Origin: Strigops habroptila
Taxonomy: Eukaryota > Chordata > Aves > Psittaciformes > Psittacidae
DNA: 64,000 nucleotides
Reading direction: 5' to 3'
Assembly (NCBI RefSeq): GCF_004027225.2
Contig: NC_044298.2
Span: 917,537 to 981,536, forward strand
Under the pieces are notes generated by a model that worked only from the letters and a program-made list of their open reading frames with translations, searched no databases and was not told where the DNA came from. This document shows positions 20,153 to 52,979 of this stretch, in pieces (the first letter of the stretch is position 1; each line of letters starts with the position of its first letter). A program made the position numbers and the translations under genes.

Positions 20153-23100
20153 ATGGGTCCGGGCCGGCTCCTCCCGGGGCTGCTCCTCGCGATCGGCGCC
20201 GCCGCGCGCTGGGTCGCGACCCCCGACACGGTAACGAGGGGGCGGGGCTATGGCAGGACCCGCCCACTCCCCCCGTGCCCCGCCCACATCCTGGGGTTCC
20301 CCCGCACCCCCTTTGTCCCCCATAATTGCCCCCCCCCATTGCCCCCAGGACCCCTCTTTCCCCCATTAATGCCCTCCTGACCCCCCGAAGTTCCTTCCCC
20401 CCCCCCTTGACCCCCCCAATACCCCCAGCACACCCCAGGGCCCCCCAATACCCACCATTGTCCTCTTGCTTCCATTAAAACCCCGCTTCCCATCGCCGAC
20501 CCCCCAAATCCCCCTCTCGGGACCCCCAACTCCCTGCTTTACCCCCCTTTATTTTCCCCCATGAACCCCCCCCGAGACCCCATAACCCTCCTTGTTCCCC
20601 CCATAACTCCCCTTGCGCCACCCATGAACCCCCCCGACCCTGCCAATACCCCCAATGTCCCCCTATAGCCCCCCAACACTCTTCTTTCCCCCATTAACGC
20701 CTTCCCGACCCCTCCAAAACTCCTTGACCCCCCCCAATACCCCCTGCAGACCCCCCCTATTGCCCTTTTCACCCCTCTTGCTCCCCATTAGACCCCCCCC
20801 CTCCCGACCCCATTTGTGTGTCCCCCCCCCAGGTGCGGCCGCGGGTGGTGCGGGAGCAGCTGCTGTGGGTGAGCGGGGAAGGGCACGGGGGGGTCCACAC
20901 GTTCCGGGTGCCTCTCGTGGCCGCCACCCGCGGGGGGGCGCTGCTGGCCTGCGCCGAGGGTCGCAAGCGCTCGGCCGCCGACGTGGGGGCCAAGTTCATC
21001 GCCTGCCGCCACTCCCCCGATGGAGGTGGGCCGGGGGGGGGGGGACACCACAAGAGGTTGTTGGGGGGGATTTGGGGGGGTCTGAGGGGGAATGGTGGGG
21101 GGGGAAAAGGAGTTTTGGAGGGGTCGGGGGAGCATTGATGCGGGGGAAAGAGGGGTGTTGGGGGGCTATAGGGGGTATTGGCAGGGTCAAGGTGGTTAAT
21201 GGGGGGGCACAAGGGAGGTTGTGGGGGGGACAAGATGGTTGTGGGGTCTCGGGGGGGTTCAGTGGGGGGTCTAAGAGGTTGCTGGGAGGGGGGCTGAAGG
21301 AGATTTAGGGGGTCTGAGACATCCTTGGGGGGTTCTGAGGGTTCCTGAGGGGGGGGATCTGGGGGGTGTTGGAGAGAACTTGGGTGGGGAGGACTGAGAG
21401 CTCCCTGGGGGGGGTCTGGGGGCGCTTGGGGTCGCCTGGAGGGTTTTGGGTCCTTGGGGGATCATGGGGCTTGGGGGGCATTCAGGGGGGGTCCGACCAT
21501 GTCTCCCCCCCCCCCCCCAGGTGCGACGTGGGGCCCAACGCGGGTGGCAGCGGATGATGGCTCGGCAGCGGATGGGCTGAACCTGGGGGCGCTGGCGGTG
21601 GCAGGGGACGAGGTGCTGCTGCTGTTCGCCCGCTGCGCCCACCCCCCCCAGGCCTGCGGCCCCCCCAGCACCCACCTCCTGCGGAGCCGCGATGGCGGCC
21701 TCTCATGGGGACCCCCCCAGAACCTCTCGGGGGTGGTTGGCAGCGAGGTGTTTGCCCCAGGGCCTGGCTATGGCATCCAGGTACAAGGGGATATGGGGGG
21801 GGTCAAGTGGGGGGATTTGAGGGGACCCAGGCATTAAGGCTTGGGGAAGGGGTTTGGGTGGAACCCTGGGGTGGGGGATGTGGAGCTTTGGGGGGGGGGG
21901 GGGGCGCTTGGGGGGACCCAGGATTCCATCTGGGGTTGGTGCTTGGAGGTTTGGGGCCTGGGGGCACACAGGGATTGGGGGGGGGGGGACGACCTTGGGG
22001 ATGTGTGGGGTGATAACCCCAAAATCCAGGGGTCTGGGGGGACCCCAGTGCCCAGAGAAGGGGTCAGAAGGGACCCAGGCATCGAGGAACAGGGGGGAGC
22101 CGGGGTGCAGGGGGGATGCGGGAGGCAGCACAGGGGCGCACACACAGGGTGTCTGTGCCCCCCCCCCCGCGCAGAAGCAGCATGCGCCGGGCCGCGGGCG
22201 CCTGGTCTTCTGTGGCCACGGGACGCTGGAGAGGGACGGGGTCTCACTGCTGCTGAGTGACGACGGGGGGCTGCGGTGGCGGCGGGGGGGGGCACTGCCC
22301 GCCATCCCCTTCGGGGCCCCCCGCCACCCCCGAGATTTCACCCCCGATGAGTGCCAGGTAGGAGGGAAAGGGCGAAAATGGGGGGGGGGGGAGTGGGGGA
22401 TCCTCATTTTGGGGGGCAGAGGTGGGACCCCACAATTTAAGGGGTAAATGGGGGCCAGCCCCTCTCTTTTGGAGGGTCTTGGGCAGTGACACCCCCCCCC
22501 CCCCCACTTCGTGGCCCCGCAGCCCTATGAGCTGCCCGACGGCTCCATCGCCGTCAACATCCGGAACCAGAACTCGTACCGGTGCCGGTGCCGGATGGTG
22601 GCGCGGAGCTGGGACGGCGGCGAGACCCTGCCCCCCGCAGCCGTCACCTTCGATCCCGCCCTGGTGGACCCCGCGGTGGCCGCCGGGGTCCTGGTCACCG
22701 GGGACCTCGTGTTCTTCAGTAACCCCGCACACGAGAGCCAGCGTGAGTGCGGGGCTTAGGCTGGGGAGGGGGGGGCCTGGCTGCTGAGCGGTGCCCCCCT
22801 TAACGCCCCCCGATGTCCCCCGAGCCCCCCTGCGGGCTCCCCATTGCTGCCATATCTTATTAGCCTCTCTCTAATTCCCCATTAATACTCACCCTAGACT
22901 CCCAAAGTCCCCCCGGGGCCCCTCAGCACCCTCCTTTGCTCCTCTGACACCCCCAAGACCTCACGCTTCTCTTTACCCCCCCTTTCACCCCCAATGGGGG
23001 GCCCCATAGCCCCACAACACCCCTCTTCGCCCCCATTAATGCTCTCCTGACCCCTCCCAAGCTCCTTGTCCCTCACCCACTACCCTCCCTTGACCCCCTC

Positions 23101-28799: not shown

Positions 28800-29230
28800 G
28801 CATCATCGATATCGAAATCGACATCAAAATCGATATAAAAACCAATATAGATATCAATAGCCAAATCCAAATGAATATCGAAATAAATACCCAATTCGAT
28901 ATCCAAATCGATATCCAAATCGATATCAAAACCGATATCAATATCGATCTCAATATCAAAATCAATATCAAAATCAATGTAAAAATCAATATCGATATCA
29001 AAATCACTATCAATATCAAAATCAATATCCATATCGAGATCAAAATCAATATAAAAATCATTATAGGGATTTTTATATTGGAAATCATTATAGGGATTTT
29101 TATATTGATTTCCTATATATTTTATATAGGAAATCAATATCAATATCAAAATCGATATCTAAAGCCACATAAAAATCTATATCAATATAAAAATACGAAA
29201 ATCAGGATCAAAATCAATATCAAAACCCAA
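28800..29230 (+). repeat. AT-rich ATATCA/AAATCA hexamer satellite
   Basis: About 430 bases of ATCAATATCAAAATCGATAT-type sequence, roughly hexameric, including a 40-base internal duplication around 29050-29120. It is a strongly AT-rich island in a GC-rich window. The minus strand gives an open frame of Asp/Ile/Phe repeats, which is an artefact. Confidence 0.93.
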
Positions 29231-29449
29231 ATCAATGTCAGTCACTATCCAAAGCTCTGTGCGACCACTGCAGGAAGAGGCCCATTGCAGGTGCCTTCAC
29301 TTGCACCACCTCTCTCCTGTGCAGCATCCCAAGGAGCAGCATCCCGGGAAGCAGAAAACAAGGAGCTTCCCTTCGGAGCAAGCCCACAGCCTGCTCCTCC
29401 ATGCACAGAGCACCCAGAACAGCCCCTACACTTGGTTCCGCTGCCTACA

Positions 29450-31815: not shown

Positions 31816-34800
31816 ATGGCGGCCGCGCTGGTGCCGGTGCTGGCGCTGCTGCTGTTGCTGGTGCTACTGGCCGGCCGCTGGGGGGCGCTGCACCTGCTGC
31901 ACCCGCAGGGGGCGCTGCACCTCGCTCACCTCGCCCGCCGCCGCGGGCCCGTCCTGCGCATGCGCCTGGGGGGGCGCGGTGAGTCCAGGGGGGGGGGGGG
32001 GGGGCACCCCAAAACTGACCCTGACCCCCCCCCTCCCCGGCGCCCCCCTTAAATCACCCCTTGGGGACCCCCCTCAAGGGTTCCCCAAACTCCTCTCACT
32101 CTCTTTTTGGGGTCTCCCCCATTTGGGTTCTCCCCATCCCATTTTGGGGTCCCCCCCATTTGGGTTCCCTCCTCCAGTTTTGGGGTCTCCCCCATTTGGG
32201 TTCCTTTCACCCCAATTTGGGGTCTCCCCCGTTTGGGTTCCCTCCTCCAGTTCTGGGGCTCCCCCCTAGTTTTGGGATCCCCCCCCAGTTGGGTTCCCCC
32301 CCCAATTTGGGGGTTCCACCCCATTTCGGGTCTGTCTCCCACCCTCCCGTTTTGGAGCCTCCCCATCTTCGGGTTACCCCCCTTTTGGGGTACCCCTATC
32401 CCTCATTTGGGTTTCCTTTCCCCTATTTCGGGTCCCCCCCACCCCATTTTGGGTCTGTTTCCCCCCCCGTTTTGTGTCTCTCCCCCCATTTTGGGGTCCC
32501 CCATACTGGGGCGCCCCCAATCTAGGTCCCAGCACCCCCATTTCTCCCCCCCCCAGATGTGCTGGTGCTGAGCTCGGCGGGGACCATCCGGGAGGCGCTG
32601 GCCCGGCACTGGGGGGACTGGTTGGGGCGGCCCCCGAGCTACCTGGGTATGGGGGTGTCTATGGGGCTGGGGGGGCTTTATAGTAGTGCCTATGGGGCTT
32701 GGGGGTAGTTGGGTGGGCTGTGAGGGGGGGTTATGCTGTGGAGGGGTGTCTATGGGGCTGGGGGGTATATGGGGGGCGGGGAGCAGGGTTATGGGGTGAA
32801 GGGGTGTCTATGGGGTGTATGGCTGGGGGGCGTTATAAGAGGGGGGTTGTGGGGTGGAGGGGTGTCTATGGGGCTGGGGGGTACATGGGGGGCTAGGAGA
32901 GGGGTTATGGGGTGGAGGGGTGTCTATGGGGTGTGTGACTGGGGCGGGGTTATAGGAGGGCGGTTTTGGGGTGGGGGGATGTCTATGGGGCTGGGAGGGT
33001 ATATGGGGGACTGGGAGGGGGTTTATGGGGTGGAGGGGTGTCTATGGGGTTGGAGGGTATATGGGGGCTGGGGGGGTTATGAGGTCTATGGAGCTGGGGG
33101 GTATATAGGGGACTGGGAGGGGGGTTATGAGGTGGAGGGTTGTCTATGGGGCTGGGGTGATATATGGGGTCTGGGAGGAGGGCTATGGGGTCTATGGGGC
33201 TGGGGGGTATATGGGGGTCTGGGAGGAGGGCTATGGGGTCTATGGGGCTGGGGGATGTCTGTGGGGCTGGGAGGGGCGTTATGGGTGTGTGGGGCTGAAG
33301 GGGGCGGTGTTGGGGTCCCGGCCCCCCATGGCCCCCCATGGCCCCCCCAGCGCCGCTGGTGTCTCGGGGGGGCCGGGACCTGGCGCTCGGGGTCCCCTCC
33401 CCGGGGTGGCGGCAGCAGCGCGGAGCCACGCGGGGGGCGCTGGCGAGGGCGGGGCCACGGCTGGGGGCGGAGCTTCGGCGCAGGGGGCGTGGCCTGAGGG
33501 AGGTGAGTGACAGCCCCATAGAGCCCCCCAGTACCCCCCATAGAGCCTCCAGGTACCCCCCACAGAGCCCCCCAGTACCCCCCATAGGGCCCCCCAATAT
33601 CCCCCGGACGCCCCAAACCTTCCCATAGAGCCCCCCAATACCCTCCCTGGGCACCCCAAGCCCCCTCCATAAAGCGCCACAGCACCCCCCCAGGACAACC
33701 CAAACCCCCCCACAGAGCCCCCCAGTACCCCCCCGGACACCCCAAACACCCCCATAAAGCCCCCCAATACCCCCCAGGACAACCCAACCCCCCCATGGAG
33801 CCCCCCAATACCTCCCCGGACACCTCAAACCCCCCATAGAGCCCCCCAATACCCCCCCGGACACTCCAAACTCCCCATAGAGCCCCCCAATACCCCCCCG
33901 GACACTCCAAACTCCCCATAGAGCCCTTTAATACCTTCCATAGACCCCACTGACCCCTCTTTGCCCCCCCAGGAGCTCCGTTCCCATGGGGGTGCCCCCC
34001 TGGACCCATTTGAGGTGTTCGCCTTCCACACCTGCAGCACCATCGGGCACCTCATCTTTGGGGATCTGGTATGGGGGGACCCCAATATGGGGGGACCCCG
34101 GGATTTGGGGGTTCCCAGTGCCCAGGGGACCCCAACATGGGGGGGGCGGGGTTTGGGGGTACCCATTGCCCCCCCCCCCTCGCTCCCTCCCCAGCTCCCC
34201 CCCGAGGCCGAGGTTCGAGCCTTCACCCGCTGCGTGCTGGAGCTGCTGGAGGTGTGGGGCCAGGGCTCGCTGCGGGCGCTCGACCTGCTGCCGGCCCTCA
34301 GGGTGAGGGGGGTGTCTATGGGGCTGGGGGGTTCCTATGGGGCTGCGGGGTGTCTATTGGGCTGGAGGGCTCTGGGGCCTTTATGGGGCTAGGCAGTCTA
34401 TGGGTCCCGGGGGGGCTCTGTGTTTCCTATGGGTCTGGGTGCCTCTTTGGGGATGGGGGGTGCCCATGGGTCCCGGAGGGCGCCTATAGGTCCCAGGGGG
34501 TGTCTATGGTTTCCGGGAGGGCTTTATGGGTCGGGGGGGGGCTCTATGGATCCTGGGAGTCCCTATGGGTCCCAGGGAGTCCCTATGGGTCCCGGGGGGT
34601 CTTTATGATTCCTATGGGTCCCAGGGGTGTCTATGGTTCCGGGGGGGTGGCTCTATGAGTCTGGAGGGTCTCTATGGTCCCTATGGGTCCCGGGGGGTCT
34701 CTATGGGGCTGGGGCGTCTCTATGGGTCCATCCGCAGGTGCTGCCCCAGCCAGGGCTGCAGAAGCTGCTGGAGCTCGTGGAGCGTCGCGACGCCTTCGTG

Positions 34801-37430
34801 GGGGCCCAGATCCAGAAGCACGAGGTGGGGGGGACCCCATTGCCTATGGGGGGGGACCCCATTGCCTATGGGGGGACACCCCCCATTGCCCACGGGACCC
34901 ATAGGTGCGAACACGCCGTGTCCCCGCAGGAGTGCGTGTCCCCCCCCCGGGACACGGTGCTGGGGGCCCTGCGGGACCCCGAGACCCCGGGGCCCCCCCT
35001 GAGCCCCCCCCGTCTGCACATGGCCCTGGTCGACCTCTTCATCGGCGGCACTGAGACCACGGCCGCGGCGCTGGCCTGGGCCGTCGCCTTCCTGCTGCAC
35101 CGCCCCGAGGTGCCACACGCGTGTCCCAGCCGTGTCCCCACGCGTGTCCCGTGTGTGCCACATGTGTCCCCCGTGTCCCCATCCCCATGGCCAGCACCAT
35201 TCCCCTGCACTGCCCTGAGGTGCCACATCCGTGCCCACATACCGGGGGTGTCCCATGTCCTGTGTGTCCCCTACGTCCCCATCCCAGTGTCCATCACCAT
35301 CCCCTGCACCACACGCGTGTCACATCCATGTCTGCATCCCCATGGGGCTCCTTGGTCCCTTTATGCCCCCCTATTATCACCGGCTGCCCCCCCCCGCCAT
35401 GACCCACACATCACCCTGGGGGGCAGTGTGCTGCGTGTGACATGCGTATGACATGCGTGTGGCATGTGTGCGATACACGTGTGACGTACAACACGCATTT
35501 GACATGTGACACATGTTACGTGTGTGACGTGTGTGACATGTACGACGTGTGCGCTGCATGTAACACGTATGTAACACGCCTGTGCCATGCCGCGGCAGCT
35601 GCAGGAGCGGCTGCGCGCGGAGCTGCGGCGGGAGCTGCCCCCCGGCGCGGTGCCTCAGGCCGGGGACACGCGGCGCCTGCCCCTGCTCCAGGCCACGGTC
35701 ACCGAGACCCTGCGGCTGCGGCCCCCGGCCCCCCTGGCGCTGCCCCACTGCGCCCGGCGCACCACCAGGTACGGAGCAGCCTGGACCCGTGGGGGCCATG
35801 GGCACCCCCAGTGCCGCCCAGCGTGTCCCAGCAGGTCCCAATAGCCTCTGCAGAGACCAGTAGGTCCCAGTAGATCCCAGTATCCCCAGCAGAGCCCAGT
35901 AGGCTCCAGTAGTACCAGTAGGTCCCAATAGATCCCAGTATCCCCAGCAGAGCCCACTAGACTCCAGTAGCACCAGTAGGTCCCAATAGATCCCAGTATT
36001 CCCAGCAGAGCCCAGTAGGCTCCAGTAGCACCAGTAGGTCCCAATAGATCCCAGTATCCCCAGCAGAGCCCACTAGACTCCAGTAGCACCAGTAGGTCCC
36101 AATAGATCCCAGTATTCCCAGCAGAGCCCAGCAGGCTCCAGTAGCACCAGTAGATCCCAATAGATGCCAGTAGCTGCAATAGGTTCCAGTAGGCTCCAGT
36201 AATCCCCAGTAGGTCCCAGTAGAGGCCAGTACCCCCAGCCGAGCCCAGTATATCCCAGTAGATCCCAGTAGGTGCCAGTAGGCCCCAGAAGATGCCAGCA
36301 GAACCCAGGAGGGCCCCAGCAGACCCCAATAGATCCCCCAAGATCCCAGTATGCCCCAGTAGATCACAGCAGGTCTCAGCACGCTCCAGTAGACCCCATC
36401 AGAGCCCAGTATGTCCCAGTAGAGTACAATAGGGTCCTAGCAGGCTCGAGAAGGTCCTATAGACCCCCAGGAGACCTCAGAGAGCCCCGGCAGAGCCCAG
36501 TGCACCCCAGTGCACCCCAGTGCATCCCAGTCCATCCCAGTGCATCCTGGTCCATCCCAGTGCACCCCAGTGCAGCGTCTCCCTGTCCCTGCAGCGTCGG
36601 GGGTATCTCGGTGCCAGCCGGCTCCATCCTGGTCCCCAACCTCCTGGCTGCCCACCAGGACCCCGACATCTGGCACCACCCCGAGGAATTCCTGCCTGGT
36701 ACGGCCGGACAGTGGGGTCCCCTCAACCCACTGGGGTCCCCTCAACTCACTGGGGTCCCCTCAACCCACTAGGGTCCCCTAAACCCTTGAGGTCCCCTCC
36801 CTGATCTTGGGGTCCCGTCAACCCCTTGGCGTCCCCTCAACCCAATGAGGTCCCCTCCTGGATCCCCTCAACCCATTTGGGTCCCCTCAGCCCATTGGGG
36901 TCCCCAAAGCTCACTGGGGTCCCCTCCTGGGTGCTGGGCTCCCCCAAACGCCCTGGTGTGAGTCCCTTCCTGGGTCCCCTCAACCCATTCGGGTCCCCTC
37001 AACGCACTGGGGTGCCCTCAACCCATTGGGGTCCCCTGAGCCGTGCCCGGGTGGGTTCCTCCTGGATACTGGGGTCCCCTGAACCCTTGGGGTCCCCTCC
37101 CTGAGGTCGGGGTCCCCCAGCCCCTTGGTGTGGGTCCCCGAGCCCCCCGTGGTGTGTTGTGACCCCGCTGCCCCCCCCCCCCCAGAGCGGTTCCTGGCGC
37201 CGGGGGCGCCGCTGCGGGCGCTGCTGCCGTTCGGCTGCGGGGCGCGCTCCTGCCTGGGGGAGGCGCTGGCGCGGGCCGAGCTCTTCGTGTTCCTGGGGCA
37301 GATCCTGCAGGAATTCCGGCTGGAGCCGCCGGCGCCGGGGCTGCTGCCCTCGCTGCGGGTGCGGGCGGGCACGGTCCTGCGCTGCCCGCCCTTCCGCGTG
37401 CGCATGGTGCCCTGCCAGGCCCCGGCCTGA
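31816..37430 (+). CDS. CYP21A1: Steroid 21-hydroxylase cytochrome P450
   Basis: ER-membrane P450 that 21-hydroxylates progesterone and 17-hydroxyprogesterone on the way to gluco- and mineralocorticoids. Ten exons as in mammals, phases exact: 31816-31978, 32557-32646, 33351-33502, 33973-34068, 34195-34302, 34738-34824, 34930-35109, 35599-35768, 36595-36698, 37186-37430. Length is 464 residues (human 495). Visible: N-terminal anchor helix, C-helix WRQQR, I-helix [11 protein letters not shown], ExxR as ETLR, PERF, and the haem loop [12 protein letters not shown] with its cysteine. [11 protein letters not shown] and the haem loop are close to human CYP21A2. The proline-rich hinge after the anchor is missing. 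Intron repeats are exceptionally dense. The symbol follows non-human usage; CYP17 or other class II P450s fit less well. Confidence 0.93.
32085..32545 (+). repeat. CYP21 intron 1 minisatellite
   Basis: Tandem units built on TTTGGGGTCTCCCCCATTTG with TTGGGTTCC, about 40 bases each, drifted. Confidence 0.85.
32645..33300 (+). repeat. CYP21 intron 2 minisatellite
   Basis: G/T-rich units around GGGGTGTCTATGGGGCTGGG and GGTATATGGGGG, more than fifteen copies of variable length. Confidence 0.9.
33515..33955 (+). repeat. CYP21 intron 3 minisatellite
   Basis: C-rich units of about 48 bases carrying CCCCATAGAGCCCCCCAATA and GGACACCCCAAAC. Confidence 0.9.
34310..34735 (+). repeat. CYP21 intron 5 minisatellite
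   Basis: Short units around CTATGGGTCCCGGGGGGTCT, many copies. Confidence 0.85.
35420..35590 (+). repeat. CYP21 intron 7 GTGTGACATG repeats
   Basis: Irregular TGTGACATGTG/ACACGTATG-type units. The upstream half of the intron has CGTGTCCC-type units. Confidence 0.7.
35850..36440 (+). repeat. CYP21 intron 8 minisatellite
   Basis: A higher-order unit of about 57 bases (CCCAGTAGGCTCCAGTAGCA, then CCAGTAGGTCCCAATAGATC) repeated nearly perfectly at 35890-36150 and drifting after that. Confidence 0.93.
36715..37125 (+). repeat. CYP21 intron 9 minisatellite
   Basis: Units around GGGGTCCCCTCAACCCATTG, about 20 bases, roughly twenty copies. Confidence 0.88.
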
Positions 37431-38187: not shown

Positions 38188-38193
38188 TTTATT
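38188..38193 (-). terminator. PYCARD: Candidate poly(A) signal for PYCARD
   Basis: AATAAA on the minus strand, 630 bases beyond the CARD-exon stop. If used, the 3'UTR would include an antisense CR1 copy. Confidence 0.5.
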
Positions 38194-38389: not shown

Positions 38390-38735
38390 ACATTCATTGG
38401 GGTTGGAAGGGACCTGGGGAGATCATTGAGCCCAAGGCAGGGCCACCCAGAGCAGAAACCTGGAGAGGGGCTTTGGACAAGGGACAGGCCAAGGGGAATG
38501 GCTTTAACCTGCCAGAGGGGAGACTGAGATGAGCTCTGAGGCAGAAGCTCTTCCCTGCGAGGGTGGTGGGACACTGGGATGGGTTGAATGGAGAAGGGTT
38601 GGATGAACCATCCCTGGCAGTGTTCAAGGGGATGGGGCTTGGAGCAACCTGCCCTAGCGGAAGGTGTCTCTGCCCGTGGCTTTAGATGAGCTTTAAGCTC
38701 CCTTCCAACACAACCCATTCCATGATTCTATGATC
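38390..38735 (+). mobile_element. CR1 LINE 3' end (sense)
   Basis: Contains GGCAGAAGCTCTTCCCTGCG, CCTGGCAGTGTTCAAGGGGA, TTTAAGCTCCCTTCCAACAC and a tail ending CCATGATTCTATGAT. It lies between CYP21 and PYCARD. Confidence 0.9.
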
Positions 38736-38820: not shown

Positions 38821-40097
38821 TCAGGGCAGCCCCATCTCCTCCTCCTGGGGGTGCTCACCCAGCTCCTCCATCAGGCAGGGCTGCAGCGCCCGCAGGGCCC
38901 GCAGGAAGCAGCCGTGGCCGCGCCGGCCCCACGCCGGGGCCGTGTCCAGGAGCCGCCGCATCTGCTCCTGCGGGGTGGCCCCGGCGGCCACGGCGGCCGC
39001 GTCCTCGGTGCCGAGCACCCCCCGCGCCTGCAGCCGGTCCAGCAGCGCCGCCACCCCCCGCACCCGCTGCACCAGCTCCGCGCGGTGCCGCCGCACGAAC
39101 CGCTCCTCCGGCGACGGGGCGGCATCCGTGACGTCATCGGTGGCGTCATCGGTGGCGTCATCGGGGGTGCGGTGAGGGGCTGCGGGGGGAAGGGGAAGGG
39201 GGTTGAGGGGATGCTGCCCAATTAGGGGAGGGGCAGCACCTCAACACTTGGGACGACCCTTCCCAACCCATCCCAACCCAGCACATCCCACCCCAGCACA
39301 TCCCAGCCCAACACATCCCAGCCCAACACTTGGCACAACCACCATCACAACCACCACCAAACCCACAGCACAACCCTTAGGACAGCCCTTGGACCAATCC
39401 TTCCCAACCCAACCATTTGCACTACCCTTCTCATCCCATCCCAACCCTTCCCAACCCAACACATCCCATCCCAACCCTTCTCAACCCAACACATCCCATC
39501 CCAACCCTTCCCAACCCAATCATTGGCACAACCCGTCTCAACTCTTCCCATCCCATCCCAACCCAATCATTTGCACTACCCTTCCCTTCCCATCCCAACC
39601 CTTCCCAACCCAACTGTTGGCACAATCCTTCTCAACCCTTCCCAACTCTTCCGAACCCAACACATCCCAAACCAACCACTTGCACTACCCTTCTCATCCC
39701 ATCCCAACCCTTCCCAACCTAACACATCCCATCCCAACCCTACCCAGCCCTTCCCAGCCCAACCCAACCATTCGCTCTACTCTTCCCATCCCTTCCCACC
39801 CCATCCCACCCCTTCCCAACCCCTCTCACCACCATCCTGCAGCAGCCACCCAGCCAGGTCCCTCCGCTGGATGCTCAGCAGCGCCTCACCCATCACCGTC
39901 ACCCCATAGCGCTCCCCATAGTGGCCGACGATGAGGTTGGTGAGGTCGAGGGCATCGGCCTCTTCCATCCTGCCATGGGGCACGGTGCGGTACCCCGCCG
40001 CCACCGGCAGCCGGTTCAGCGCCGCCTTCACGCGCCGCAGCTCCAGCGCCGGCAGCTCCTCCAGCACCCGCAGGATGCGGTCCCAGCCCGTGGCCAT
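38821..40097 (-). CDS. PYCARD: PYCARD / ASC inflammasome adaptor
   Basis: Adaptor that links pyrin-domain sensors to caspase-1 by PYD-PYD and CARD-CARD stacking. The PYD exon runs from 40097 to about 39830; the CARD exon runs 39179-38821. The PYD aligns without gaps to human ASC from residue 1: WDRILRVLEEL, the acidic Glu13, basic 21-22, GY at 35-36, Pro40, and DALDLTN covering Asp48 and Asp51. The CARD has HRAELVQRVRGVAALLDRL and MRRLLDTAPAW, again matching ASC. The linker contains DDAT repeats. The strongest donor (GTGAGA after 39829) leaves phase 2, but the CARD exon needs phase 1. Either GTGGTG after 39833 is used (207 residues in total) or a small linker exon lies in the repeat-filled intron. 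An upstream in-frame ATG at 40136 would add 13 residues. No stop or frameshift breaks either domain. Confidence 0.88.
39195..39830 (+). repeat. Tandem array filling the PYCARD intron
   Basis: Units around CATCCCAACCCTTCCCAACCC with ATTTGCACTACCC, more than twenty copies. It occupies nearly the whole intron between the PYD and CARD exons. Confidence 0.93.
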
Positions 40098-40254
40098 GGC
40101 AGGACCCCCCAAACCACCGCTGCTGGTGGCGGCCATGGCCCGGAAAGGGGCAGGAAGGAAATGGGGGTGGTGGGAGGGGCACATGGGGCTCAACATGGTG
40201 CCGGCGGCATTGTCAGTCATGTCATTGGGGCGCTGGTGGATGGTACAGGGGGGA

Positions 40255-40665
40255 ATGGGGGGCCCCTGCCTGCAGTGGGGCAGGGGATGGGGCTCCTGCC
40301 TGCAATGGGACAGGGGATGGGGGCTGCTGCTGCAATGGGGCAGGGGATGGGGGCCTGGGGCTCCTGCCTGCAATGAGGCAGGGGATGGGGGCTGCTGCTG
40401 CAATGGGGCAGGGGATGGGGGCCTGGGGCTCCTGCCTGCAATGGGGCAGGGGATGGGGGCTGCTGCTGCAATGGGGCAGGGGATGGGGGCCTGGGGCTCC
40501 TGCCTGCAATGGGGCAGGGGATGGGGGCTGCTGCTGCAATGGGGCAGGGGATGGGGGCCTGGGGCTCCTGCCTGCAATGGGGCAGGGGATGGGGGCTCCT
40601 GCCTGCGATGGGGCAGGGGATGGGGGCTCCTGCCAGCGATGGGGCAGGGGATGTGGCCGCTGCCT
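40255..40665 (+). repeat. 66-bp minisatellite upstream of PYCARD
   Basis: Five or so near-perfect units carrying GGGGCAGGGGATGGGGGCTG, CTGCTGCAAT and CTGGGGCTCCTGCCTGCAAT. It lies 120 bases beyond the upstream PYCARD ATG. 40670-42540 holds no gene I can support, though it includes a TATA-like CTCCTTTTAT pair at 41306 and 41335. Confidence 0.93.
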
Positions 40666-42539
40666 GCAGCAGGGGAGCAGCCCCAGGCACTGTGGGGAAG
40701 GCAAAGCTGTGAATATACATGAGGATGCTCGATACAGCCGCTGCCGCTCGCCTTTGCGCAACCAGCGCTGCAATGGAGAACGCTGCTTCCTGGAGCTCCG
40801 CATCGAGCCTGACTTAGCCTGCATTTCTGAGCCCTGAATCTGGCCACATGAGCCCCCAAAACACAGCACTTTGGGGGCTTTGCGTTAGCCGGACAATGGC
40901 TCTACCAAGCCCCCCAAAACCAGGTCCCTTTCTGTGGCCAAGGGAGCCTGGTTTTGAGCCCCCAAAGCGCAGCACTTTGGTTTCTGGTGCTGAGCAGCAA
41001 AGGGCAGGGCTTGGTCTGTGCTTCTGAGCCCAATGAGGCGCCAAGACCTTCATACACGGCCCCAGGACCGGGCTCTTTCGGGGCCCGGAGCCCCCCCGAC
41101 ATCCACGTCCCGGCCCCGCAGCACCGACCGCGGCCGGTCCCCGCTCTGGGCCCGGCTCCGCTGAGCCGCAGCGCCCCAAAGCCCGGGCCCCAGAGCGGCC
41201 CCGGCCCCGAGGTCTGCGGCAGAACCGGCTGCGCCGGGAGCGGCACCACCCGCACCCGGGAAGCCGCGCCCGCTCCTAATATGGGCATCTCCCCGGCCTC
41301 CCTCTCCTTTTATGGTCATGTCTCCGCCCTCCATCTCCTTTTATAGATGTGGCACCGCCCCCTAACTTCACAGGCCACGCCCCGGGTCCTATCGCCCGCC
41401 CGCCCGCTCGTGTCCCCCCCCGCCCCGGCCCGTGGAGTTTTGGGTGGCAAAGCGAGGTACGATGGACAGGTTGGGGGCACCGCGGCAGAGCTCTCCATGT
41501 CCCCCCCATGTCCCCTCTATGTTACCCCGTGTCCCCTATGTCCTACATCCCCCATGTCCCCCATGTCCCCCTGCCCTCCCAGTGCAGGCCGTGCTTGGGG
41601 GGGCTCTCCCAGTACAACTTCCAGCTGCATAAGGGGGGGACACGGACCAGGGACTCCCCAAAACCACCTCCCCCGGGACCAAACACCCCACACACAACCC
41701 GGGAGCTGCTCATGGACCCCCCCGGGCTCCTTCTGGGACCCTCCTCTTGGCACGTACAGACCTTGGGACCCCCCTGGGAACCCTCTGACACCCCCTAGGA
41801 CCCTCTCGGGACCCCCTCCGAGACCCCCAGGATCCCATGAGCTCCCCGCTCACACCTTGGGAATCCCTTGGGGCCCCCCAACACCCCCTTTGGGACCTGA
41901 ACCCCCTTCAAGCCCCCCTGAGACCCTCTTGGGACAGCACAAGACACCCTCTGACCCCCATTTGTGACACCCCTGATACTCCCTTGGGGACCCCCCCCGA
42001 ATTCCCCTTCTAGCCCCCCTGGGACCCTCTTGGGTCCCCCCCCAACAATCTTGGTCCCCCCACCCCAACAGAGGGGAGTCCCCTCAAACCCCCGTGTCCC
42101 CCCCCAGACTCATCATCCGCCCCCCCATCTCCCAGCTCCTTCCTCCCGGGGTTTTCCCCATCGGATTCCCGGTGGGACACAGGAGGGGGGGACACGGGGG
42201 GGTTGCGCAAACCTGCGTCACATTGAGCCGGGTGTTGGGCAATGGGGGGGACCCGGGGCTGCCCCCCCCTCCCCGGCACCTGCCCAAAGGTTTGGGGCTG
42301 GGACCCCGCCATTAACACCCATAATGTCGGGTGAAGGGGGGCGCTGGTGCCTCTTCTCCTCCCCACACCTCACATCGGGGGTTCCGGGGGGGGACACACA
42401 CGAACTGAGCCCCCCCCGATTGGGGGTTCCCCCCCGTGTCCACCCCCCCTCGTCCGGGGGTGACTCACGGGGTGGGGCAGGGCCCAAAATGGGGCAAAAA
42501 CCGCAAAAATGCGGCTGCTTCCCCTCGGCGTGACGGGGC

Positions 42540-48185: not shown

Positions 48186-48855
48186 TTAGTGCTGCTTCCG
48201 TCGGAAGGAGCAGCCTGGAAGGGGGGGGGATGATAAAACCTTCCTTAAACCGGGAATTCCCTCGCTCCCAACCCCAATTCCATGGGGAAAACACCCCCTA
48301 AACGCCCAAACGACGGGGTTAAAAGGGATTCTTACCTTCTGTGAGCCGAGCCTTGCCCCCCGTGGGCTGGCACAGGACGGTGGAGCAGCCAACGCAGAGC
48401 ACCACGGTCTGAGCGTGGCTGAACACGGTCGTGATCTTGTAACACCCTGCGGGGACGGCGGCAGCGCTGGCACCGGGACACCGGGACACTGGGATCCCCC
48501 CCGCCATTAGACCCTGCGGGGTTATGTCCTTACCGGGGCACTTGACGTCCATGAAGTAGGAGTTGGGGCTCTGCACCAACCGCTTCTTCTTGTGTTTCCT
48601 CTTCTCCTCCTCGGGCGAGGGGTGCAGCAGGTCCTTGGCGAGCTGCGGGGAGAAGCCGCCTCAGCGCCCGCCGCCATCTTGCGCACCCCGGCGGGGTCCA
48701 TGGCGGCGGGCACGGAGCGACCCGCCCCGCCCCGCAACACCGCGAACACCCCGCGAACACCCCCCCGGGCACCCCCCCGCCGCCCCCCAGCCCCGGCCCC
48801 GGCGGCCGGGGGAGCCGCGGGACGCGCCCGGTGCCGGCGCGGTGCTCACGGGCAT
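48186..48855 (-). CDS. RPS27: 40S ribosomal protein S27 (eS27)
   Basis: Small-subunit ribosomal protein with a C4 zinc finger. Four coding exons in phase: 48855-48850 (only Met-Pro), 48642-48534, 48446-48336, 48214-48186. The 84-residue product appears identical to human RPS27 as I remember it: [20 protein letters not shown], the CPGC and CVGC zinc-ligand pairs, and the end CSFRRKQH. A six-base first coding exon is typical of this gene. A pyrimidine tract typical of TOP mRNAs lies just upstream (about 48880-48888). Intact introns show it is the parent gene rather than a processed copy. It is head to head with RAB13. Confidence 0.97.
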
Positions 48856-49638: not shown

Positions 49639-49730
49639 GCGGCCATATTGGGAAGGGCGATGGGGGCGGCCATATTGGGAAGGTAATGGGGCCGCCATAT
49701 TGGGACGGGTAATGGGGGCCGCCATATTGG
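49639..49730 (+). promoter_or_regulatory. RAB13: Four tandem YY1-like sites upstream of RAB13
   Basis: GC(G/C)GCCATATTGGG occurs four times at about 49639, 49666, 49691 and 49718, spaced 25-28 bases. The core GCCATATT fits the YY1 consensus. The array lies 90-180 bases before the RAB13 ATG. Binding is inferred from the motif. Confidence 0.6.
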
Positions 49731-49817
49731 GAAGGGCGCAAGTCTCCGCCCCGGGGTGGGGGGGGCCGGGTCCCGGTGTCCGGTCCCGCTGTCGGCAGCC
49801 GGGGCAGGGGGGGGACC

Positions 49818-51197
49818 ATGGCCAAGGCGTACGATCACCTCTTCAAGCTGCTGCTGATCGGGGACAGCGGAGTGGGCAAGACGTGCCTCATCATCCGCCT
49901 GGCCGAGGACAGCTTCAGCAGCACCTACATCTCCACCATCGGTGGGTCCGCGGCGGGGGGACACGTCGGGGGGCGCTCCCACCCCATCCCACCCCATCCC
50001 ATCCCATCCCTCCTCCTCCTCCAAGCCCTCAATGTGCCGATGGAGCCATTCCCTGAGGCTGGAGCAGGAAATATCCAGCCAGGACTCTGTCCTTCCTTTC
50101 TGTCCCGGGAAGCTGGAGGCTGGGATATGGATCAGGGCTGTGGGTGCATCACCAGCCCCACTCTTACTTCCTCCTTCCTTCCTTCCTTCCTAGGGATCGA
50201 CTTCAAAATCCGGATGGTGGACATCGATGGGAAGAAGATCAAGCTGCAGGTCTGGTGAGTGAAAAGGGGGGGGGAAATTGGGGGTTATCCCTCCCCCCCA
50301 ATGTTCCCAATGTTCCCCCCTCATCCTCTGCCTTTCCCACAGGGACACAGCGGGACAAGAGCGCTTCAAAACCATCACCACAGCCTATTTCAGGGGAGCT
50401 GTGGTATGTTGAGAGGGGGGGTACAAGGAAACCCCCCCCAAACCCATGTAGAGGGTCCCTGCCCCACTGACTACCGCATCCCCACAGGGCATCATCCTGG
50501 TGTACGACATCACCGACGAGAAATCCTTTGAGAACATCCAAAACTGGATGAAAAGCATTAAGGAGGTGGGTGTGGGACACGGGGGGGGGATACTGGGGTG
50601 CCGGGGGGGGATCCTGCTCATCCTTTCCTGCCTTCAGAACGCATCTGCCGGGGTTGAGCGTCTCCTCATCGGCAACAAGTGTGACATGGAGGAGAAGCGC
50701 AAAGTGCAGCGGGATGCGGCTGAGAAGGTGGGGGGGCAACTATGTGGCTTGGGGGGGAGATGGGGGGCACCCCCCCCATGGCACTCGGGTCAAAAAGGGT
50801 GATATCCCCTTGCCCCACAGCTGGCGAAGGAACACGGGATCCGCTTCTTTGAGACCAGCGCCAAGTCCAGTGTGAACGTGGAGGAGGTGAGGGGGGGTCT
50901 CCATCCTTTAAGGGGGGTCCCCATATTGGGGGGGGTGCCCCATTGCTGTACGCACTGATTGTGCCCCCCCTTCCCCAGGCCTTCAGCACGCTGGCACGGG
51001 ATATCCTGCAGAAATCCTATCGGAAAGCAGTGAGTGGGGCTGGACGGGGGGGTCCGGAGGGGTGTCCCCCCCCTTCCAATGCTCCAGACCCCCCCCTTGA
51101 CTCATTCCCCTCCCTCTTCCAGGCCCCCAGCAGCGGCCAGCCCCTGTTGGAGCCCGGCCCCCCAAGGAAGACGGGGGGTAAATGCTCCCTGGTGTAG
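49818..51197 (+). CDS. RAB13: Ras-related small GTPase Rab13
   Basis: Rab GTPase that directs vesicle delivery to tight junctions and the leading edge. Eight exons in phase: 49818-49941, 50194-50254, 50343-50403, 50488-50565, 50638-50727, 50821-50886, 50979-51029, 51123-51197. Length is 201 residues (human 203). Motifs: P-loop GDSGVGKT, switch I STIGIDFK, DTAGQE, NKCD and [24 protein letters not shown] and [18 protein letters not shown] separate it from RAB8/RAB10. The C-terminus ends KCSLV, a CaaX-type prenylation box (CSLG in human). The hypervariable tail differs from mammals, as expected. Confidence 0.96.
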
Positions 51198-51769: not shown

Positions 51770-52979
51770 ATGGGCCCCGCGCTCTGCGCCGCGCTGGGGC
51801 TCCTGCTCTGCGGCGTCAGGTCAGCGCGGCCCCGCGGCCGGGGGGCGGCTCCGGGGGGCGGCTCCGCCCGCAGCGCGGCGCTCACCCTGTCCCTGTGCTC
51901 TCCGCAGGCCGGCGGCGGCGATGGCGGCGAGTGAGGAGCGGCGCTCGGGTGAGCGCGGCCGGGACCGCGGCTTGGAGCCGGGACCGGGGGGTGGAACCGG
52001 GATCTGAAGCCGGGACCGGGATCTGGAGTCGGGGCTGGGGGCTGGAGCCGCGTTTGGGGCGGGAGACCGGGGCTTGGAGCCGGGAATCGGGAGTTGGAGC
52101 CGGGGTTTGGGGCTGGGGACCGGGCGTTGGAGCCGGGATCCGAAGCCAGGACCGGGATCTGGAGTCGGGGCTGGGGGCTGGAGCCGCGGTTTGGGGCTGG
52201 AGACTGAGGCTTGGAGCCGGGAATCGCGGCTGGGGACCGGGGGCTGGAGCTGGGATCTGGAACTGGGACAGGGGTTTGGAGCCGGGGACCGGGATCTGGA
52301 GCCGGGGTTTGGGGCTGGAGACTGGGGGTTGGAGCCGGGATCTGAAGCCAGGACCGGGGGTTGGAGCCGGGGGCTGGAGCTGGGGATCGGGGGTTGGAGC
52401 CGGGGACCGGGATCTGGAGTCGGGAGCAGGGGCTGGAGCCCGGGCCCCGGCCCCGGTGCTGAGCCCCGGTTCCCCGCAGCGAGCCCGGTGGCGGCCCCGG
52501 CGTGCTGGCGGGTCGAGGACTTCGTGGTGGCGCAGGAGTGCTCCCGCTGCTCCAGCTTCCAGCTGGTGAGTGCGGCAGCACCGGGGCTCCCCCCGGCCCC
52601 CCGCGGCTGCGCTGCCCCATAGCGCAGCCTCCATGGGCCCCTCTCCATTGCAGAAGACAGTGGCCGAGTGCAGCCCCACGGGCTTCGTGGAGCAGATCAG
52701 CTGCACCGCGTCCAAGAGGGACGAGTTCAAGAGGTGGGTGCGGGTTCCGGGGGGGGGGTGGGAAGGGGTGGGATTTGGGGCCGGCATTCCCAGCGGCATT
52801 CCCACCTCTCGCCGTGGCGCAGCTGCCGCTCCGCCGTCATGGAAGCCCACGTGTTCTGGAGGTTCGTGGGCACCATGATGGGTGTCGCTGCCGTGTTTGC
52901 CGTGCTCGTGGTGTGTCGCCAGCGTGTCCTGGACAGGAAAGCTCTGGAGAAGGTGCGGAAGCAAATCGAGTCCATTTGA
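51770..52979 (+). CDS. JTB: Jumping translocation breakpoint protein
   Basis: Small type I membrane protein with a cysteine-rich ectodomain; implicated in mitochondria and cytokinesis in mammals. Five exons in phase: 51770-51819, 51908-51948, 52480-52565, 52654-52733, 52823-52979. Length is 137 residues (human 146). Signal peptide MGPALCAALGLLLCG; ectodomain cysteines in CWRVEDFVVAQECSRCSSF and SCTASKRDEFKSCRSA; one transmembrane helix (VGTMMGVAAVFAVLVV); the tail RKALEKVRKQIESI is the same as human. Intron 2 is a minisatellite. It lies tail to tail with CREB3L4. Confidence 0.95.
51955..52455 (+). repeat. JTB intron 2 minisatellite
   Basis: Units around GGGACCGGGATCTGGAGTCG and GGGGCTGGGGGCTGGAGCCG. 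Confidence 0.93.

Follow-up and report, generated by a model that had tools for sequence, protein, structure and literature searches.

In the ASC (PYCARD) family, a pyrin-bearing sensor seeds a filament of ASC pyrin domains, and the ASC CARDs gather caspase-1, which matures IL-1 cytokines and opens a gasdermin. Known dampers, for example POP1, consist of a pyrin domain alone. A 2024 paper reportedly concluded that all birds lost ASC and that NLRP3 was retained. Absence from chicken, and perhaps from birds in general, was also mentioned in the preliminary description of the present locus, in agreement with current published claims: a tBLASTn search recovered no PYCARD from chicken, turkey, or zebra finch (PMC13076529, March 2026), and chickens are described as lacking ASC in PMC12724324 and PMC13185645. 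For the chicken absence PMC12724324 cites ref 35, which by its reference list is the COVID-19 review PMC7248552; the citation seems misplaced, because the text of that review never uses the words chicken, avian, or birds. PMC10948149 gives gasdermin A as the caspase-1 target in birds.

Among titles and the opening lines of abstracts in a collection of largely non-subscription papers, no description of an avian ASC gene was found, and literature searches combining PYCARD with microchromosomes, or PYCARD with avian and parrot, returned nothing. As far as this literature search shows, bird ASC is present in databases yet undescribed in print. On our preferred reading, the window, by which we mean the whole stretch of 64,000 bases analyzed here, very probably contains a bird ASC (PYCARD) gene, most likely from a parrot, that encodes a two-domain adaptor whose mechanism is likely that of the family.

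The gene and its product

A 208-residue protein is encoded by two minus-strand exons (40097..39830 and 39179..38821) across a consensus 650-base intron. The gene and its immediate flanks comprise the following features.

38188..38193, minus strand: AATAAA, possible poly(A) signal, 627 bases beyond the stop
38715..38734, minus strand: CR1-like repeat fragment downstream of ASC, located by motif search
38821..39179, minus strand: ASC coding exon 2 (359 bases), encoding the linker, CARD, and short acidic tail, with a TGA stop
38854..39111, minus strand: CARD, residues 113–198, position derived from the exon map
39118..39164, minus strand: 12-base coding tandem repeat inside exon 2, encoding the Asp-rich ASC linker
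39180..39829, minus strand: single GT...AG intron of 650 bases, with short tandem repeats; the exon 1 frame has stops here
39830..40097, minus strand: ASC coding exon 1 (268 bases), encoding the pyrin domain (residues 1–88) and ending in phase 1
40098..40136, minus strand: possible extension of the N terminus by 13 residues, read from an in-frame ATG farther upstream in a strong start context
40258..40668, no strand assigned: tandem array just upstream of ASC, 68-base unit, 97% matches at 40288–40627

The splice junction is in phase 1 (donor ATGGTG/GTGAGAGG, acceptor CCCGCAG/CCCC, the slash marking the junction), and one GT/AG pair among those tried yields the 208-residue protein. Intron included, the coding region covers 1277 bases of the window, and no stop or frameshift interrupts its 627 coding bases. 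A gene span reaching to 40136 had been proposed, and an in-frame ATG is indeed present there, 13 residues upstream of the Met at 40097. Both contexts are strong, and the assumption that the inner Met is the sole start does not hold. The annotated golden parakeet protein begins at the position matching the upstream ATG and has Leu in place of the inner Met; given this start and the in-frame ATG at 40136, parrot ASC may therefore be 221 residues long. Twelve further aligned rows reach the N terminus, and these begin either at the inner position or at the residue that follows it.

Pfam identified PYRIN (residues 8–82, 1.2e-15) and CARD (residues 116–197, 9.7e-16) in the 208-residue protein and no further family, so that neither a sensor nor an enzyme domain accompanies the pair. 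The best solved-structure match in the PDB is human ASC (query residues 4–196, 2.6e-24). Exon 1 alone matches the ASC pyrin domain first (2.6e-11), followed by POP1 (3.8e-9) and NLRP6 (1.8e-6); exon 2 alone matches ASC first (1.7e-9) and the NLRP1 CARD second (1.8e-8). Scanned in six frames with a bird-ASC profile, the window gave minus-strand matches at 38824–39240 (4e-57) and 39780–40901 (1.1e-46), while the best match of the same profile to the reversed window had an E value of only 0.79. The profile includes P0001, a database protein identical to the window protein, and the independent tests are therefore those with Pfam and the PDB. Chance open frames are ruled out by the Pfam scores and the reversed-window control, and two unrelated domains by the per-exon PDB matches and the single-domain trees described below. 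A second ASC copy within the window was likewise rejected, the six-frame profile scan showing a single one.

Overall, the window protein and human ASC are 35% identical (67 of 189 aligned residues). Over human ASC residues 4–88, the pyrin domain aligns without gaps (31/85 identical), and the CARD is identical at 33 of 80 positions. Among the pyrin positions that are contacts in the human ASC filament, Glu13, Pro40, Asp48, and Asp51 are kept and the basic pair 21–22 is kept as Arg/Arg, whereas Lys26 is replaced by Ala and Arg41 by His. CARD positions 128, 130, 143, and 187 differ from human, which counts against the preferred reading. An intact-looking PYCARD gene at 38821..40136, as set out in the preliminary description, is thus confirmed, with both domains in place and far above chance; so are the gap-free pyrin alignment (over residues 4–88), the list of kept and replaced residues, and the ASC-type CARD that follows.

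The identical 208-residue protein, P0001, was found by protein search on a separate contig of 951 bases. The 1277-base gene, with stops in its intron, is longer than this contig, which is therefore most likely spliced RNA or a copy thereof. Window ASC is most likely transcribed, the RNA nature of the contig being judged from its size, and a transcript joining the pyrin and CARD exons, which had been named as a check on the gene, is in this way indicated. A second protein, P0002, is 86% identical, has the same layout, and lies on a contig of 1041 bases.

The AlphaFold model has a mean pLDDT of 80 and a pTM of 0.45. Ten-residue blocks within the domains score 84–93, with exception of residues 31–40 (65) and 81–90 (78), and the linker (89–108) and tail (199–208) fall below 50. 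In a fold comparison with the PDB, the full-length ASC filament 9wz7 and ASC 2kn6 ranked first. Matches to full-length ASC have TM scores of 0.40–0.44 by query length and rmsd values of 9–14 Å; a low overall TM is expected, because the model consists of two hinged domains. Single-domain ASC chains fit the model at 1.1–1.7 Å.

Conservation and spread among birds

The window protein, P0002, and the golden parakeet (Guaruba guarouba) protein group at 100/98 in the full-protein tree, and all 17 bird rows (these three, 12 further Neoaves rows, ostrich, and kiwi) fall together at 100/99. In single-domain trees, the window groups with all 12 given bird rows (pyrin 99/98, CARD 100/98); the tree tool issued a long-branch warning for the full-protein tree and for both single-domain trees. 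Both domains lie within the same bird ASC clade and not in different families, and the bird source supposed earlier agrees with the position of the window protein inside this clade. A non-bird source is ruled out by the tree with bird ASC rows.

Eleven non-parrot birds share 88 invariant columns, 79 of which the window retains. Asp48, Arg119, Asp134, Glu144, Arg160, and Trp169 are kept in 14 of 14 bird rows and Asp51 in 13 of 14. Human Asp10 is replaced by Arg in 12 bird rows and by Trp in one (13 rows covering the sites), and Lys26 is absent from all 13 bird rows covering that position. His for Arg41 occurs in the window and P0002 only. Both the missing Lys26 and the His count against the preferred reading.

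Three protein searches, which score only candidates sharing short exact words (with a ceiling of about 8000 candidates in the second and third) and had 19, 30, and 54 proteins among the matches listed, revealed ASC-type proteins in at least 18 named bird species, among them kiwi and ostrich. These are Guaruba guarouba, Rhynochetos jubatus, Accipiter gentilis, Accipiter nisus, Morphnus guianensis, Circaetus pectoralis, Harpia harpyja, Phalacrocorax carbo, Morus bassanus, Chunga burmeisteri, Cariama cristata, Sarcoramphus papa, Grus americana, Ciconia boyciana, Phaenicophaeus curvirostris, Struthio camelus, Apteryx mantelli, and Apteryx rowi. Both domains are listed in 17 of the 18 species, Morus bassanus having the pyrin domain alone by Pfam, and the Ciconia, Accipiter nisus, Apteryx rowi, and Struthio entries are partial or odd gene predictions. 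The ostrich entry (P0021) is filed as glutamine-rich protein 2-like and has a long repeated stretch between its domains, possibly intron repeats read as coding sequence. The 10 species whose order was looked up represent 10 orders (Psittaciformes, Eurypygiformes, Cuculiformes, Accipitriformes, Cariamiformes, Gruiformes, Ciconiiformes, Suliformes, Apterygiformes, and Struthioniformes).

Since ASC occurs in Palaeognathae as well as in Neoaves, it was already present in the ancestor of living birds, unless the gene was regained. The proteins of the 18 named birds show that loss of ASC across all birds is wrong; the window gene contradicts the current published generalization, and with relatives in 18 named birds, statements about birds as a whole fail. 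No galliform, waterfowl, or songbird was present among the named matches listed. Human ASC was not returned either, and the missing chicken and songbird matches are therefore weak evidence of absence. The published tBLASTn negatives leave a true loss in chicken, turkey, and zebra finch uncontradicted, and absence from these three species reflects either lineage-specific loss or failed detection. That ASC is simply hidden in birds, as once suggested, is not fully supported: the gene is annotated in at least 18 named birds, and its presence in public databases means that it was not invisible but had escaped notice in print.

Genomic setting and rival explanations

Neighboring genes were assigned by Pfam scans of 20 neighboring open frames, of which 12 matched at E ≤0.001 and eight had no match, and by reading of translations.

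4.3–5.0 kb, plus strand: tropomyosin exon by Pfam, with another at 8.9 kb by eye
17.2–17.6 kb, minus strand: DC-STAMP-like frame, below the curated cut-off
22490–22756, plus strand: sialidase-like frame, BNR_2 match below the curated cut-off
34609–37427, plus strand: cytochrome P450 exons with minisatellites between them, adjoining ASC and convergent with it
48322..48660, minus strand: RPS27 (Ribosomal_S27e, 1.1e-22)
49713..51194, plus strand: RAB13-like Ras GTPase, two exons by Pfam, the rest by reading
52623..52976, plus strand: JTB (JTB, 5.2e-13)
53.3 kb, minus strand: bZIP frame like CREB3L4, by Pfam or translation reading
57.5 kb, plus strand: ZIP transporter, by Pfam or translation reading
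60.1 kb, plus strand: TORC_N domain of a CRTC gene, by Pfam or translation reading

We take these neighbors to include RAB13, CREB3L4, SLC39A1, CRTC2, and TPM3, and the P450 to be CYP2-like. The surroundings of ASC (RPS27, RAB13-like, JTB, CRTC2) presumably resemble human 1q21.3, and the block may lie on the equivalent of chromosome 25.

The two ASC exons have GC contents of 70% and 78%, with 92% at third positions, and CpG observed/expected ratios of 0.76 and 0.87, versus 0.17 in the intron. The ASC sense strand carries nine quadruplex-like motifs, versus approximately 3.5 expected from the strand average (177 in 64000 bases). Exon GC of this order fits a gene that is hard to sequence; it is not proof that ASC lies hidden elsewhere. 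The intron is a patchwork of tandem repeats. The CR1-like motif, which at 38715..38734 we take to mark a CR1 fragment, occurs in the window once exactly and twice with three mismatches, with 0.03 expected. Elsewhere in the otherwise GC-rich window, AT-rich tandem repeats (ATCAAT and AAATCA types) occupy 28805–29235, and a GGAA-type tandem repeat of more than 1.1 kb (757–1928) is strongly strand-biased, the GC skew of positions 1–2000 being 0.51. The intron and upstream repeats of ASC resemble the expansion of repeats within introns that PMC12954441 describes for chicken dot chromosomes. That paper also reports that losses outside dot chromosomes are highest (4–7%) on chromosomes 22, 25, and 33.

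The reported setting of PYCARD in anole and mammals is FUS/TRIM72, and neither a FUS nor a TRIM72 domain occurs among the 20 neighboring frames scanned, a subset of all frames. A synteny search guided by FUS-TRIM72 would look in the wrong place. Either the ASC gene moved or a paralogue replaced PYCARD. We regard it as rather unlikely that the bird gene is an ASC-like paralogue in a 1q21.3-like block, replacing a PYCARD lost at FUS-TRIM72, with sauropsids having several PYD + CARD genes. The differing neighbors speak for such a paralogue, as do the several PYD/CARD entries per turtle species (some possibly isoforms) and the failure of bird, turtle, and mammal ASC to join with good support. In the pyrin tree, birds join turtle proteins weakly at 76/56 with long branches; in the CARD tree, also with long branches, mammal ASC groups with turtle proteins, including NLRP1-like ones (90/92), apart from birds. 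Both trees count against the preferred reading. With a bird CARD profile, the scores of desman, turtle, and human ASC and of turtle NLRP1-like CARDs lie close together (66, 61, 60, and 57 bits). With a bird pyrin profile, in contrast, human and desman ASC reach 72 and 69 bits, more than any turtle protein tested (12–53 bits), each exon matches ASC above any other solved family, and the window has one ASC copy.

Heavy repeats in the intron and upstream, together with a His at interface residue 41, where other birds keep Arg, would also suit a relic, decayed or untranslated, with exons that remain open through recency. This is very improbable, given uninterrupted coding bases, splice sites that fit the consensus, the identical protein on a contig of spliced size (P0001), 79 of 88 bird-invariant columns kept, and a second protein of the same layout (P0002). 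The substitutions at Lys26 and Asp10 in birds, and at Arg41 in the window and P0002, could instead mark a PYD-CARD protein with a rewired pyrin interface that dampens inflammasomes rather than building them. We consider this improbable: both adaptor domains are kept together, whereas known dampers such as POP1 consist of a pyrin domain alone, and Asp48, Arg119, Asp134, Arg160, and Trp169 are retained in every one of the 14 rows, with Asp51 in all but one. A broader reading, to which we give an approximately even chance, is that a GC-rich, repeat-dense block of non-mammalian type preserved ASC from the bird ancestor onward: palaeognaths, parrots, raptors, cranes, and others would have retained it, the galliform and songbird lines would each have lost it independently, and the parrot pyrin interface would have been rewired.

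Proposed function and comparison with known adaptors

Filament or speck formation, partners, outcome, and a role as inflammasome adaptor can be proposed for window ASC by analogy with the family. An activated pyrin-bearing sensor, for instance NLRP3, which birds retain, would recruit the ASC pyrin domain, which would extend into a filament. The CARD would then recruit and activate the CARD-bearing protease caspase-1, which in turn would mature IL-1 family cytokines and cleave gasdermin A. We infer a working adaptor with shifted contacts.

The ASC family is well known and other birds are already annotated, and the window adds another bird ASC. Which birds have ASC-dependent inflammasomes is now directly testable. 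If the survival and separate losses proposed above are true, ASC-positive and ASC-negative living birds form a natural experiment on NLRP3 signaling with and without the adaptor. PMC12503942 describes parrots as companion animals and possible reservoirs of zoonotic disease; this study, on budgerigars, measured NLRP3 and CASP1, and no word in its text starts with "ASC".

The NLRP1 CARD, with sauropsid NLRP1-like proteins, is the next-best CARD match after ASC; Pfam found no NACHT, LRR, or FIIND domain in the window protein, which sets it apart from NLRP1-like proteins. Turtle ASC (Chelydra, Chelonoidis) shares the PYD + CARD layout at 34–36% identity, with several entries per species. Annotated bird ASC (Guaruba guarouba, Accipiter gentilis, Grus americana, Apteryx mantelli, and others) belongs to the same family and has the same layout. 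Local identity to the window is 56–78% for Neoaves entries, with exception of Harpia (45%), and 44% for Apteryx mantelli. A11V, I39V, I126V, E140Q, and A168D are common to the window, P0002, and Guaruba, in contrast to other birds. ASC linker size varies widely among birds, and the Grus and Accipiter proteins also have acidic linkers, of other lengths. Compared with human ASC (PDB entries 2kn6, 9wz4, and 9wz7), the window protein has the same PYD-linker-CARD order, a gap-free pyrin alignment, and similar domain folds, with Glu13, Pro40, Asp48, Asp51, Arg119, Asp134, Arg160, and Trp169 in common; it differs in K26A, R41H, its Asp-rich repeat linker, and its gene neighbors.
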